From assembly GCF_003416885.1 (NCBI RefSeq), contig NZ_QVPD01000008.1, positions 1 through 64,000 on the forward strand: a DNA stretch of 64,000 bases. The letters run 5' to 3'. Of the stretch, positions 19,703 through 23,279 are shown one piece after another. Position 1 is the first letter of the stretch. The number at the start of each line of letters is the position of its first letter. The position numbers and the translations under genes were made by a program. The notes beneath the pieces are model-generated. The model was not told the origin of the DNA. It saw only the letters and a list, made by a program, of their open reading frames with translations, and did no database searches. Origin of the DNA: Cognatiluteimonas weifangensis (GTDB lineage: Bacteria; Pseudomonadota; Gammaproteobacteria; Xanthomonadales; Xanthomonadaceae).

Positions 19703-19897
19703 ATGAGCCCTTCGCGTCCCTTCACCCGCTCCCGTACCGACCGCGTCCTGGCCGGCGTGATGGGCGGCATCGCCCAGCGCTTCGGCTGGAACTCGACCCT
19801 GCTGCGCGTGATCTACGTGATCGTCTCGATCGCGTCGGCCGCATTCCCCGGCATCCTCGTGTACCTGATCCTGTGGCTGCTGATGCCCGAGGAATGA
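19703..19897 (+). CDS. PspC-domain membrane protein
   Basis: 64-residue protein made of one PspC domain: DRVLAGVMGGIAQRFGWNSTLLRVIYV, followed by a transmembrane helix (about 35-60, VIVSIASAAFPGILVYLILWLLMP). PspC in enterobacteria is an inner-membrane sensor of the phage-shock response. Single-domain relatives like this one are common and mostly uncharacterised. No pspA or pspF is nearby, so a role in membrane stress is only suggested by family. The stop overlaps the ATG of the next gene (ATGA at 19894-19897), so the two are probably translated together. Confidence 0.8.
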   Translation: MSPSRPFTRSRTDRVLAGVMGGIAQRFGWNSTLLRVIYVIVSIASAAFPGILVYLILWLLMPEE

Positions 19898-20367
19898 ATC
19901 CGCTGTGGCGGGCGCTGCGCGTGCTCGGCGTGCTGTGGACCGCGCCCAACACCGCGCTCGGCCTGGTCGCCGGCGCCCTCGGCCTCGCGTTCGGCGCACA
20001 CGCGCATCTGCGTCCGCACGACCTGGCGCTCGTGTTCCACCGCATGCCGTGGGGTCCCGGCGGCGCGCTGACCCTGGGCAACGTCATCCTGCACACCGGC
20101 GACACGCTGGACTCGCCGTGCGCGACCTACGCGCACCGCGACGGGCACGCGCAGGAGGCGCCGATCGTGCTCGCCGACCACGAGCGCGCGCACGTGCTGC
20201 AGTACATGGCGCTGGGGCCGCTGTTCCTGCCGCTGTACCTGCTCAGCGGCGGCATCAGCGCGCGCAACCGCTTCGAGCGCGCGGCCGACCGCTACGCGCA
20301 GTCCGGCCGCGGCTGGTGGCCCTGGAGCGGCCGCGACCACCGGCCGACGAACGGTCGTTGCTCTTGA
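19894..20367 (+). CDS. Hypothetical protein with HERAH motif
   Basis: 157-residue protein coupled to the PspC-domain gene by a 4-bp overlap. The N terminus carries a hydrophobic helix (LRVLGVLWTAPNTALGLVAGALGLAFG), and a second hydrophobic stretch follows at about 105-125 (YMALGPLFLPLYLLSGGI). Between them VLADHERAHVLQYMALG resembles a degenerate zinc-peptidase helix (HExxH-like, HERAH), followed by an acidic/aromatic segment FERAADRYA that could hold a third ligand. I do not recognise a named family, and metallopeptidase activity is speculative. The TGA at 20365 overlaps the possible -35 of the RNA candidate downstream. Confidence 0.65.
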   Translation: MNPLWRALRVLGVLWTAPNTALGLVAGALGLAFGAHAHLRPHDLALVFHRMPWGPGGALTLGNVILHTGDTLDSPCATYAHRDGHAQEAPIVLADHERAHVLQYMALGPLFLPLYLLSGGISARNRFERAADRYAQSGRGWWPWSGRDHRPTNGRCS

Positions 20368-20396
20368 CGCGGGAATAACAGGCACCGCGCTAGGGT
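20364..20396 (+). promoter_or_regulatory. Candidate promoter for structured RNA
   Basis: TTGACG at 20364-20369 is a good -35. The -10 is likely within GCGCTAGGGT (20387-20396), matching the GCTAGNNT pattern seen elsewhere in the window. Exact hexamer alignment is unclear because the best TAGGGT gives a 21-bp spacer. Transcription would start near 20400. Confidence 0.4.
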
Positions 20397-20402
20397 GCGG
20401 CC

Positions 20403-20550
20403 GTCGGAGAAAAAGAGGTCAGCAAAGGCGGACCAACGGCGCAAGCCGGAGAAAAGCCGGCGCAGGTCTCAACAGCTCCGACACGAAGGCTCAGCCGACC
20501 GAGGGAAACCTCGGGAGACTGGGCCTTCACTTTTGTGGGGGAACCCAACG
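20403..20550 (+). ncRNA. Candidate structured noncoding RNA
   Basis: No convincing open frame, but nested complementary segments are visible. GTCGGAG (20403-20409) pairs perfectly with CTCCGAC (20476-20482). Inside lies GCCGG-loop-CCGGC near 20443-20459. The next domain pairs AAGGCTCAG (20486-20494) with CTGGGCCTT (20519-20527) through one G-U. Within that, CCGAGG-GAAA-CCTCGG (20499-20514) is a six-bp stem with a GNRA tetraloop. CAC-TTTT-GTG follows. A promoter-like sequence lies just upstream. I cannot assign it to 6S, tmRNA, RNase P, SRP or a riboswitch by eye. It could be an orphan mobile-element RNA, and the 3' end is a guess. Confidence 0.5.
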
Positions 20551-20725
20551 CTATCGGGCTTGCGTGCGGGCGGCGCACACGATGACATCGTGGCTGATCG
20601 CATCACAGCGCGGCATGCCTTCCCGCAGTCGAGTCAGCAGCATGACGGCGCGGGATTTGCATTCGCAACTCGGTGCGTTGCGGGATCGACGTGGACAGAA
20701 ACGAGGCTTCTCCCGCGAGCGGGAA

Positions 20726-20870
20726 CTTCCGCGGGGGGAAGCCGGTAGCCCGGCCTGTGCGGGACACGCCGTGAATACATCCCTGTAGGCTCCTCGGCGG
20801 CATCCATGCCGCCGACGGTCCCGCACAGGCCGGGCCACCGGCTTCCGGGCAAGTGAGTCGGCGCTTGTAG
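20726..20870. repeat. Inverted second copy of the dispersed repeat
   Basis: Bases 20726-20833 are the reverse complement of 1-108 with about two mismatches, including the palindrome GGCGGCATCCATGCCGCC. Beyond 20833 the unit GTCCCGCACAGGCCGGGCCACCGGCTTCC continues in the direct orientation, similar to the copy near 220. The element abuts the terminase-like fragment, whose upstream part is missing. Confidence 0.8.
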
Positions 20871-21107
20871 AAATACCCGAAGCGACAAACCTCCAACCTC
20901 GCGCAGTCGCCGGCCGGCGGGCTGGGGGGCCCAGTGCTGCTGAGGGAGCTGCAGGACTTCCGCGTGCGGTTCACCGACTCGGGCAATGCCACGTTCAACG
21001 CTCGGGAGGGCGCTCACGATGACCTGGTCTTGGCGTTGGCCCTTGCGGTCTTTGGGCTGAGTCGGCCGGAGACTGTGCGGGAGCTAGATGTGGTATGGGT
21101 CCGATAA
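20871..21107 (+). pseudogene. Fragment of phage terminase-like protein (C terminus)
   Basis: Open frame without a start codon (an in-frame TAG is at 20868-20870) that ends at TAA 21105-21107. The translation reads KYPKRQ at the 5' end, then GPVLLRELQDFRVRF, TDSGNATFNAREGAHDDLV and LALALAVFGLSR. The REG-x-HDDLVLALALA ending is characteristic of the nuclease end of large terminase subunits and related phage/island proteins. About 78 codons remain, so over three quarters of a normal gene is missing, replaced upstream by the dispersed repeat. It is a relic of a prophage or island. Confidence 0.6.
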
Positions 21108-21471
21108 GTAATTTTGGACGTATAGGTAACGTCACAAGTTAGGGAATAAGAAGATTCATAAGTCATTGATACATAAGGGCATCAAAGTGCGACTGAGGAC
21201 ACATAAAGTGTAGAAGCAAGTTGTCTAAACATAGGACGCAGGGTTCGGCATACGTCTCGTAACGCCAAGATAGATAGGAATTCCTAAGTACCTATGTAGT
21301 CTCAAAGCATGAGAATTGGCGCTAAACAAGGTGTTTACACTTCACGTGGAACATCTATGTTTCACGTGAAGTCGTTTTTGGCGTATTGACAAACGCGCCG
21401 CCCCGGTTGACACCGGACGACGCGGCCCTCATGATCCACACCGTAGGCATCCCCGCCTTCGGAGATATGTC
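21108..21471. other. AT-rich noncoding block in island
   Basis: 364 bp with no credible gene and much lower GC than the surroundings. It holds several ATAAG direct repeats (21146, 21158, 21173), the perfect palindrome TAGGAATTCCTA (21275-21286), and two parS-like palindromes (21338-21373, annotated separately). TTGACA occurs at 21386 and 21407; the latter with CATGAT at 21430 (17-bp spacer) is a usable promoter for the gene at 21472. Composition and repeats suggest a control or maintenance region of a mobile element, but no replication gene is adjacent. Confidence 0.5.
21338..21373. promoter_or_regulatory. Pair of parS-like palindromes, back to back
   Basis: The plus-strand site TGTTTCACGTGAAGTC (21358-21373) and the minus-strand site TGTTCCACGTGAAGTG (21353 down to 21338) each match the ParB-binding consensus TGTTNCACGTGAAACA at 13 of 16 positions, differing only in the last three. 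They are four bases apart and form one 36-bp near-palindrome. No parA or parB is in the window. It may be bound by host ParB, by a ParB-like or Noc-like protein, or act as an operator for 21472. Confidence 0.5.
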
Positions 21472-22302
21472 ATGGAAACAGGGTCCCTGGTCCCCGTTAA
21501 GCCGAAGAAAACTGCGCGCCCTCGCAGCGCGGTGTCCTTCCCTTACTACAGTCTCGACTCGGCTATCGAAGTCGCTGAAGTAATCCACCAGAAGGCGGGC
21601 GGTAGCTGCACGCGCGAGCAACTGGCTCCGATGCTGGGGTACAGCGGCGTGAAGAATGGCGGCTTCCTTTCAAAGCTCGGCGCTGCACGTATGTTCGGGC
21701 TCGTGGAAGAGATGGGGGGAATGCTCCGGCCTACGCAGCTCGCGTCGAGCATCTATGCACCGGTACACGCGTCAGACGCGCAGCGCGCGAAGGCGCAAGC
21801 GTTCCTGAATGTCGAGTTGTTCGAGAAGGTCTACGAACGGTTCAAGGGGCAGCCGCTGCCGACCAACGAAGGCCTGGAAAATCTCCTTCGGGTCGGCTTC
21901 AAGGTGGTGCCCGCGCAGGTCAAGAACGCAATCCGCACAATGCAGGAGTCGGCCGAAAGCGCTGGATTCTTCGACGCAGCCGGGCGCGGGCGCTTAGTTC
22001 TGCCTCTGGCAGCGAATGCCAAGTCGTCGACTTCTTCACCGGCTCAGGGGGCATCGGCCACTGGTGATCACGCTAATAGTGCGCTCCCTCCGCTCCCTCC
22101 GCTTCCGGTGGTCACTTATGCTGGAGGCGGGCGACCTGCGGAAGACGCAGAGATTCCACCTGCAATCTACGGGCTGATTCGCGACCTGCCCCCTGAAGGG
22201 ACGGGCATGACTGCTGCGAAGCGCCAGCGGCTGATCAAGGCGTTCGAGGCGAGTATCAACTGGCTTTACCCGGATGACAGCGAGGAGGTCGCCAATGAAT
22301 AG
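21472..22302 (+). CDS. Unknown island protein, winged-helix-like
   Basis: 276 residues from ATG 21472, behind GGAGAT (21461-21466). I do not recognise a named family with certainty. Residues 20-150 look like tandem winged-helix folds (SLDSAIEVAEVIHQKAGGSC, REQLAPMLGYSGVKNGGFLSKL, then ARMFGLVEEMGGMLRPTQLA), a pattern seen in DUF5343-like and phage-associated regulatory proteins. Residues about 180-215 are a Ser/Ala/Pro-rich linker, and the C terminus is acidic (YPDDSEEVANE). GC and codon use are below the chromosomal average. The closest upstream feature is the parS-like palindrome pair, so a DNA-binding role at that site is a reasonable but untested idea. Confidence 0.65.
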   Translation: METGSLVPVKPKKTARPRSAVSFPYYSLDSAIEVAEVIHQKAGGSCTREQLAPMLGYSGVKNGGFLSKLGAARMFGLVEEMGGMLRPTQLASSIYAPVHASDAQRAKAQAFLNVELFEKVYERFKGQPLPTNEGLENLLRVGFKVVPAQVKNAIRTMQESAESAGFFDAAGRGRLVLPLAANAKSSTSSPAQGASATGDHANSALPPLPPLPVVTYAGGGRPAEDAEIPPAIYGLIRDLPPEGTGMTAAKRQRLIKAFEASINWLYPDDSEEVANE

Positions 22303-23093: not shown

Positions 23094-23279
23094 ATGCTGC
23101 TGCTAACTCGCAAGTCGGGTAGGGCGCTGGTCATCGGGGGCGACGTAACGGTCACGGTCGTCAGCGTCGAAGGGGGCCGGGTGGTGCTAGGGGTGCAAGC
23201 GCCGCGCGCTGTGGCCGTGCGCCGCGACGACGCCCGCAAGGTACCCCGCAGGGCCAGCGAGGCCCGTAGCACCCTATAG
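23094..23279 (+). CDS. CsrA/RsmA paralogue
   Basis: 61-residue homologue of the carbon storage regulator, which binds GGA motifs in mRNA leaders and alters translation. The start MLLLTRKSGRALVIGGDVTVTV aligns end to end with CsrA ([22 protein letters not shown]). Leu4 and Arg6 are kept, Arg7 is Lys, and Arg44, the key RNA contact, is present in AVAVRRDDA. The tail is basic and divergent. GGGAG lies nine bases upstream of ATG 23094. Location in an island beside tRNA-Leu suggests a mobile paralogue rather than the core csrA, which is normally beside alaS/recX. It could reprogramme host regulation or only island genes. Confidence 0.85.
   Translation: MLLLTRKSGRALVIGGDVTVTVVSVEGGRVVLGVQAPRAVAVRRDDARKVPRRASEARSTL

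Follow-up and report, generated by a model that had tools for sequence, protein, structure and literature searches.

What lies between the end of the gene that we call 'up' and the phage-like DNA behind it in Cognatiluteimonas weifangensis (genome size 2.76 Mb)? A preliminary description of the 64,000-nucleotide stretch analysed here (the window) had proposed an unassigned structured RNA with its own promoter-like sequence. We found homologues, covariation and a conserved promoter, and no Rfam match, all of which agree with that proposal. The stretch 20403-20535 appears to be a genuine gene for a small folded RNA, and comparison among relatives indicates a stand-alone noncoding RNA gene whose structure is backed by covariation. 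Its parts and its upstream region are as follows (percentages and pair changes refer to alignment A3, see below).

19894..20367, + strand: 'up', the syntenic upstream gene, a neighbour outside the RNA, with an HERAH motif seen by eye
20343..20357, + strand: upstream element GCCGACGAACGGTCG, inverted repeat CGAC-GAACG-GTCG
20365..20379, + strand: putative activator box TGAC-N7-TAAC, a direct repeat with 11-bp period (promoter pattern test, 71 rows)
20391..20396, + strand: -10 element TAGGGT, 11 nt past the repeat
20403..20535, + strand: noncoding RNA gene, its start placed from the -10 element and its end from the terminator-like hairpin
20403..20409, + strand: 5' arm of P1, GTCGGAG (95.8% of cells paired; two-sided changes in 4 of 7 pairs)
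20410..20475, + strand: A-rich internal loop, AAAAA opposite CAACAG, with the variable P2 hairpin, here in its long form
20476..20482, + strand: 3' arm of P1, CTCCGAC (same A3 covariation test); P1 has 7 bp
20485..20494, + strand: 5' arm of P3, GAAGGCTCAG (99.9% of cells paired; two-sided changes in 3 of 10 pairs, 4 of 10 invariant)
20499..20514, + strand: P4 hairpin CCGAGG-GAAA-CCTCGG (two-sided changes in 6 of 6 pairs; only 68% of cells paired on A3)
20519..20528, + strand: 3' arm of P3, CTGGGCCTTC, pairing with GAAGGCTCAG; P3 has 10 bp
20529..20535, + strand: short T tract ACTTTTG, terminator-like

The 7-bp closing stem (P1) and the GAAA-capped 6-bp hairpin (P4) were recovered as previously described, while the second stem (P3) is present but comprises 10 bp instead of the reported 9. 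The predicted fold of 20397-20560 reached -77.3 kcal/mol. Shuffled versions averaged -57.0 (z = -4.9), and none of the 200 did as well. A terminator scan listed a terminator-like site at 20510-20523. A covariance model built from 71 sequences (R2) matched the window at 20382-20536 with 89.7 bits. The RNA is about 130 nt long; its P1-P3 span ranges from 89 to 141 nt among 71 relatives, and P2 takes the long form in this genus.

Covariation over homologues, a check already suggested in the preliminary description, was analysed in A3, a MAFFT alignment of 71 rows that was not fitted to any structure. The rows were drawn from 101 places. Left out were 24 places scoring below 49.7 bits, three duplicates or near-duplicates (L089, L067, L120:9609) and three places where P1 fitted only in part (L131, L024, L134), so that row selection somewhat favours the structure. 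The named structure was paired in 90.4% of cells with two-sided changes in 13 of 23 pairs, and none of 500 shuffles came up to the real alignment on any of the five measures. When the 3' partners were displaced by 1-3 columns, pairing fell to 25-60%, and these slid controls, too, all stayed below the observed value. The P1 pair 27-142, for example, is GC in 37 rows and AU in 26. RNAalifold, unaided, found 17 pairs, 8 of them with two-sided changes. In addition, every one of the 71 aligned relatives had a P1-P3 fold with z < -2; the median was -5.7, with 60 shuffles per sequence.

Single parts differed in their conservation. P3 is conserved in sequence as well as in pairing, with four of its ten pairs never varying among the 71 relatives, and AGAAAAA or AGAACAA occupies the A-rich loop in 54 of 71. 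P2 loops are variable: by motif count 42 of 71 are GNRA-like, and six read CYGAGG or CTGAAAA. In constrained folds, all 71 relatives had a hairpin enclosed by the P1 arms, a count of little weight by itself, and four of them (L020, L125, L127, L130) did not hold the aligned P1. The longest T run after P3 has at least four Ts in 20 relatives and one to three in the other 51.

A conserved protein frame was not found in this region. P1-P3 lengths are spread evenly over the three phases (22, 23 and 26 of 71 relatives), which makes a protein frame unlikely, and we rejected a coding reading on this ground, although every forward frame is open through P1-P3 in 50-56 of 71, as expected for short GC-rich DNA. 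A mechanical 117-aa ORF spans 20395-20748 in the window.

How widely is the RNA distributed? With blastn, 31 of the 149 genomes of the family, counting the own one, gave matches; in three of the 31 (L035, L037, L038) the match lies away from the RNA. R1, a covariance model from 25 sequences, matched 109 of 395 Lysobacteraceae genomes, more than one in four, in 22 of 54 genera; we regard the RNA as a well-supported gene family. With R2, 120 of the 395 (29 of 54 genera) were matched at E<=0.001; a hand count of this table gave at least 35 bits at 115 places in 110 genomes, the remainder being weak or antisense. A pattern scan hit 29 contigs, mainly of Luteimonas and Lysobacter. Judged by sequence, the RNA is conserved within the Luteimonas/Lysobacter part of the Lysobacteraceae, usually in single copy per genome (blastn, R1). 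Extra copies were seen at L148, L152, L120:2531-2653 and L142, in genomes G074, G038 and G254. L148 and L152 seemingly share a common context, promoter-like boxes occur at L148, L152 and L120, and the P2 loops of the extra copies read CCGAGG or CTGAGG.

Beyond the family, R1 matched one of 200 order genomes (G494) and, besides the own genome, one among 274 class genomes (G638); on reading, both were spurious. R2 matched six genomes of other families among 397 order genomes. Two of these matches are weak (G533 and G551, 22-23 bits), and those in G494, G429 and G543 look spurious on reading, as does one inside the family (G060). The sixth, G928, belongs to another family of the order and is, at 41 bits, a possible member. 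Genomes of group g39 carry a diverged version at the equivalent place (L175, L178), and G039 was matched by R2. In genomes lacking an R1 match at this place, no such RNA was found within 360 nt past 'up' (20 loci read). Two genomes of that set, G003 and G093, have an R2 match farther off, and L211, a locus without the RNA, retains a promoter-like remnant.

We then turned to known RNA families. Across the 64-kb window, only tRNA-Leu reached the gathering level of Rfam 15. The comparison with Rfam that had been proposed for 20350-20750 was run on 20200-21450, where nothing lay over 20403-20535 at E<=10; likewise, a search of 20 homologous loci at E<=0.5 gave no match covering the RNA. The RNA family, absent from Rfam 15, is probably new. 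Nor was this RNA found in literature on small RNAs of Xanthomonas, Lysobacter and Luteimonas or on new family RNA motifs, sources covered in part, which leaves its absence there unproven.

The genomic neighbourhood was compared in a synteny scan of 100 loci, mostly one per genome, with same-genome repeats left out. The scan did not include L041, L043, L051, L052, L060, L133, L150, L158 and L160, nor the second copies L142, L148 and L152. It gave 114 matches. Since the hairpin is palindromic, 13 of them overlapped a better match on the opposite strand, and 101 places remained, among which a few genes were fetched twice (L018/L120, L024/L134, L064/L089). The gene order phaE-phaC-pspC-'up'-RNA, in which pha denotes bioplastic-synthesis genes, recurs among relatives, and 'up' lies upstream on the same strand as the RNA at 91 of the 101 places. 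'up' itself has no Pfam or NCBIfam family match and is present in 94 of 119 family genomes. It is separated from the RNA by less than 200 nt in 83 of the 91 places; the distances, however, reach 2275 nt, indicating that the RNA has its own promoter. Five of the ten places without 'up' have no more than 1.5 kb of upstream DNA, and in three exceptions (G005, G057, G074) 'up' lies 1.5-2.9 kb upstream by coordinates. Twelve further loci showed 'up' upstream on the same strand in seven cases and on the opposite strand in L060. In four it was not found nearby (L142, L148, L152, L158), three of these being second copies. L060 is a Luteimonas MAG contig and differs in this respect from the other loci having 'up'; an inversion or an assembly effect may lie behind this.

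Downstream, the genes are variable. The commonest is convergent (33 of 69 flanks) and, on our reading of the protein, NRDE/TANGO2-like. We read several co-directional ORF clusters, present at 29-34 flanks, as probable antisense shadows of this convergent gene; the next co-directional cluster is found at only 12 of 69 flanks. In the window, 2.8 kb of phage-like DNA follow the RNA up to tRNA-Leu, whereas in a relative of the same genus (L012) tRNA-Leu stands close behind the RNA, which suggests an insertion between the two in the window. The RNA had been placed at the edge of a mobile island. It does border phage-like DNA, but its position downstream of 'up', beside phaC and pspC, at 91 of 101 places marks it as chromosomal and not as part of that DNA. 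The dispersed repeat noted close by is real, an inverted repeat at 20737-20846, and the RNA lies outside it.

TTGACG (20364-20369) and TAGGGT (20391-20396), formerly described as promoter-like, are both present in a conserved layout, but not as a sigma-70 promoter: their distance of 21 nt is too wide for a -35/-10 pair, and a promoter scan found none. An activator repeat followed by a -10 element is the better reading. In the window, the first TGA of the activator box doubles as the stop codon of 'up'. Allowing an unfixed spacer in T[GT]A[CT]-N-TAAC, we obtained a spacer of 7 in 63 of 71 rows and other spacers of 3-15 in three rows. A looser half-site pattern, in which the regular expression fixed T, T and A of the half-sites before the spacer was freed in the later test, aligned 69 of 71 rows. 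Relative to the repeat, TAnnnT/C follows at exactly 11 nt in 67 of these 69 (offsets 10-12 tried), and P1 starts 23-25 nt past it in 69 of 69 (distances 21-26 allowed). With its 11-bp period and its place roughly one helix turn before the -10, this direct repeat matches the layout of promoters of response-regulator-driven small RNAs.

Ten carrier genomes, chosen from six genera, together contain the full promoter pattern at 11 places, of which 10 belong to this RNA or a paralogue in G074 (reversed control, 0). The remaining one (L227, G123 C1:2097472-2097504, - strand) precedes a secreted-protein-like ORF without such an RNA and is possibly a second regulon member. G138 gave no full match because its box reads TTGAT. 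Once one mismatch is allowed, the pattern loses its specificity (24 matches, nine of them perfect, versus 17 in the reversed control, eight genomes). Read by eye, the two diverged loci of g39 still have such an arrangement, L175 as TTGAC-N6-TTGAC-N11-TACCTT and L178 as TTGAC-N7-TCAC-N11-TAGCTT, and the paralogues in G074 and G038 carry their own boxes. The RNA probably has a dedicated promoter that responds to a signal. Given the specificity of this promoter, one signalling system may work largely through the RNA, which opens the regulator and the signal to direct tests in soil and biocontrol bacteria.

Farther upstream, GCCGACGAACGGTCG is a possible second regulator site. In 30 of 71 aligned relatives, the 85 nt before the RNA contain CCGAC[GA][AG]ACGG or the reversed form, and in G000 the only exact copy of GCCGACGAACGGTCG is the one at the RNA, with one 1-mismatch copy elsewhere. 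As a regulon marker the element was rejected: six genomes gave 16 matches versus 14 for the reversed control, at least four of the 16 sitting at this RNA.

Known systems offer several points of comparison. We take the P3 arms to closely resemble the stem of the E. coli rrnB T1 terminator, with a U-G pair at the matching place; here, in contrast, the stem holds an additional covarying P4 and belongs to a larger RNA. The Xanthomonas small RNA sX13 is, like the RNA here, a small multi-hairpin RNA, and it has C-rich loops. A conserved C-rich loop was not found in A3, and no Rfam family matched the RNA in 20 loci; as far as the accessible part of the sX13 report goes, the two have in common that they are small RNA genes from one order (PMC3771888). 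By promoter layout, the csRNAs of Streptococcus are the closest regulatory analogue. In the accessible part of that report, they are driven by the two-component regulator CiaR from a direct repeat TTTAAG-N5-TTTAAG of 11-bp period with the -10 ten nt downstream and a terminator, and were predicted from this repeat/-10/terminator layout (PMC3091779). The likeness concerns the layout (11-bp period, about 10 nt to the -10, terminator); the half-sites here are TKAC/TAAC and the phylum is different. Similarly, architecture I of the Salmonella PhoP box has one direct-orientation repeat at the -35 place, 11-12 nt or one helix turn before the -10, but its half-site is (T/G)GTTTA and its promoters serve protein genes, according to the available part of the source (PMC3335776). 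Within the same partial coverage, 11-bp-period direct repeats near -35 mark OmpR/PhoB-type regulators, namely CiaR (PMC3091779), PhoP (PMC3335776) and HP1043 (PMC5253667), and the response-regulator-box literature held analogues, but no regulator matching TKAC-N7-TAAC.

We consider it somewhat probable that the RNA founds a new family of small RNAs that are induced by an OmpR/PhoB-type regulator and act in trans. Sequence comparison shows the structure with its covariation, the preferred position behind phaC-pspC-'up' and the distinctive layout of the promoter; the regulator class is suggested by analogy of that layout, and the action in trans we only infer. In the proposed working, a signal would lead a dimer of a candidate OmpR/PhoB-type response regulator to the TKAC-N7-TAAC repeat, which would replace a -35 box, and the bound dimer would bring RNA polymerase to the -10, TAnnnT. 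Transcription would begin flush with P1 and end at P3, and the RNA would act in trans as a regulatory small RNA. As stems hold both ends, the conserved A-rich internal loop and the P2 and P4 loops would most likely be the parts that touch a target RNA or protein. Several findings run counter to parts of this model: a perfect promoter copy exists in G123 without the RNA, the promoter pattern is unspecific once one mismatch is allowed, the RNA in L060 lies on the strand opposite to 'up', and usual Hfq base pairing would fit less well with T runs of only one to three in 51 of 71 relatives and few free bases. A poor U tract is unusual among Hfq-bound base-pairing small RNAs.

The main rival to base pairing is a protein platform: a structural or protein-sequestering RNA in the style of 6S or CsrB, in which P1, the A-rich loop and P3 titrate or guide a protein and no mRNA is paired. 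We regard it as a tentative possibility. Stems at both ends with few bases free, a P3 sequence conserved beyond the needs of pairing (the four invariant pairs) and an A-rich loop that is conserved while P2 varies would all suit such a role. The known examples, however, do not fit. 6S RNA was rejected, as its RF00013 gene lies elsewhere in 8 of 8 carriers tested and RF00013 does not match at the RNA. So was a CsrA sponge of the CsrB/RsmZ type: CsrA-type sites are not conserved, as 21 of 71 relatives lack GGA between the P1 arms, 32 have one and 18 at least two, and ANGGA occurs in only 13 of 71. A bolder version, which we think rather unlikely, sees here a lineage-specific RNA and takes its P1/A-rich-loop module and the sequence-conserved P3/P4 as a dedicated protein platform with a new mode of action, induced by a regulator that has this RNA as its main or only output; the latter is drawn from the perfect box being almost unique in each genome tested.

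That the RNA is the 3' UTR or terminator of a phaC-pspC-'up' transcript, possibly processed to a stable fragment, would account for its strand and its closeness to 'up' in 83 of 91 places; we hold this to be improbable in view of the fixed activator and -10 layout immediately before P1, the distances of as much as 2275 nt in some relatives, the paralogues at other loci and the opposite strand of the RNA in L060. Less credible still is a cis-acting leader, a riboswitch or attenuator of a downstream gene: a structured RNA with a terminator-like hairpin at its end is what such a leader would look like, but the commonest downstream gene is convergent, the next co-directional cluster accounts for only 12 of 69 flanks, and in the window phage-like DNA follows. 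The preliminary description had also raised a mobile-element RNA such as HEARO or omega RNA, which the adjoining phage-like DNA and dispersed palindromic repeat might suggest. As no Rfam family covers the RNA, its synteny is fixed and one copy per genome is usual, we give this origin practically no credence.

Several features were observed in the DNA behind the RNA. The repeat at 20737-20846 is palindromic and REP-like, with 29-nt arms that are 97% complementary; its first part has at least 56 further short matches in the genome, 40 of the 151 candidates having been scored. A phage-protein-like fragment (phrog_27743, 5.5e-11; weak terminase match, 0.035) is encoded at 20937-21104 (+ strand), between the RNA and tRNA-Leu. 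Directly upstream of an ORF at 21472, the inverted 16-mers ACTTCACGTGGAACAT and ATGTTTCACGTGAAGT (21339-21372) come near what we take to be the ParB parS consensus. Adjoining tRNA-Leu, a short phage-type CsrA-like protein is encoded at 23094-23276 (+ strand); it lies under the NCBIfam csrA cut-off and matches Pfam CsrA at 1.3e-15 and a PHROG CsrA-like regulator at 9.2e-16.
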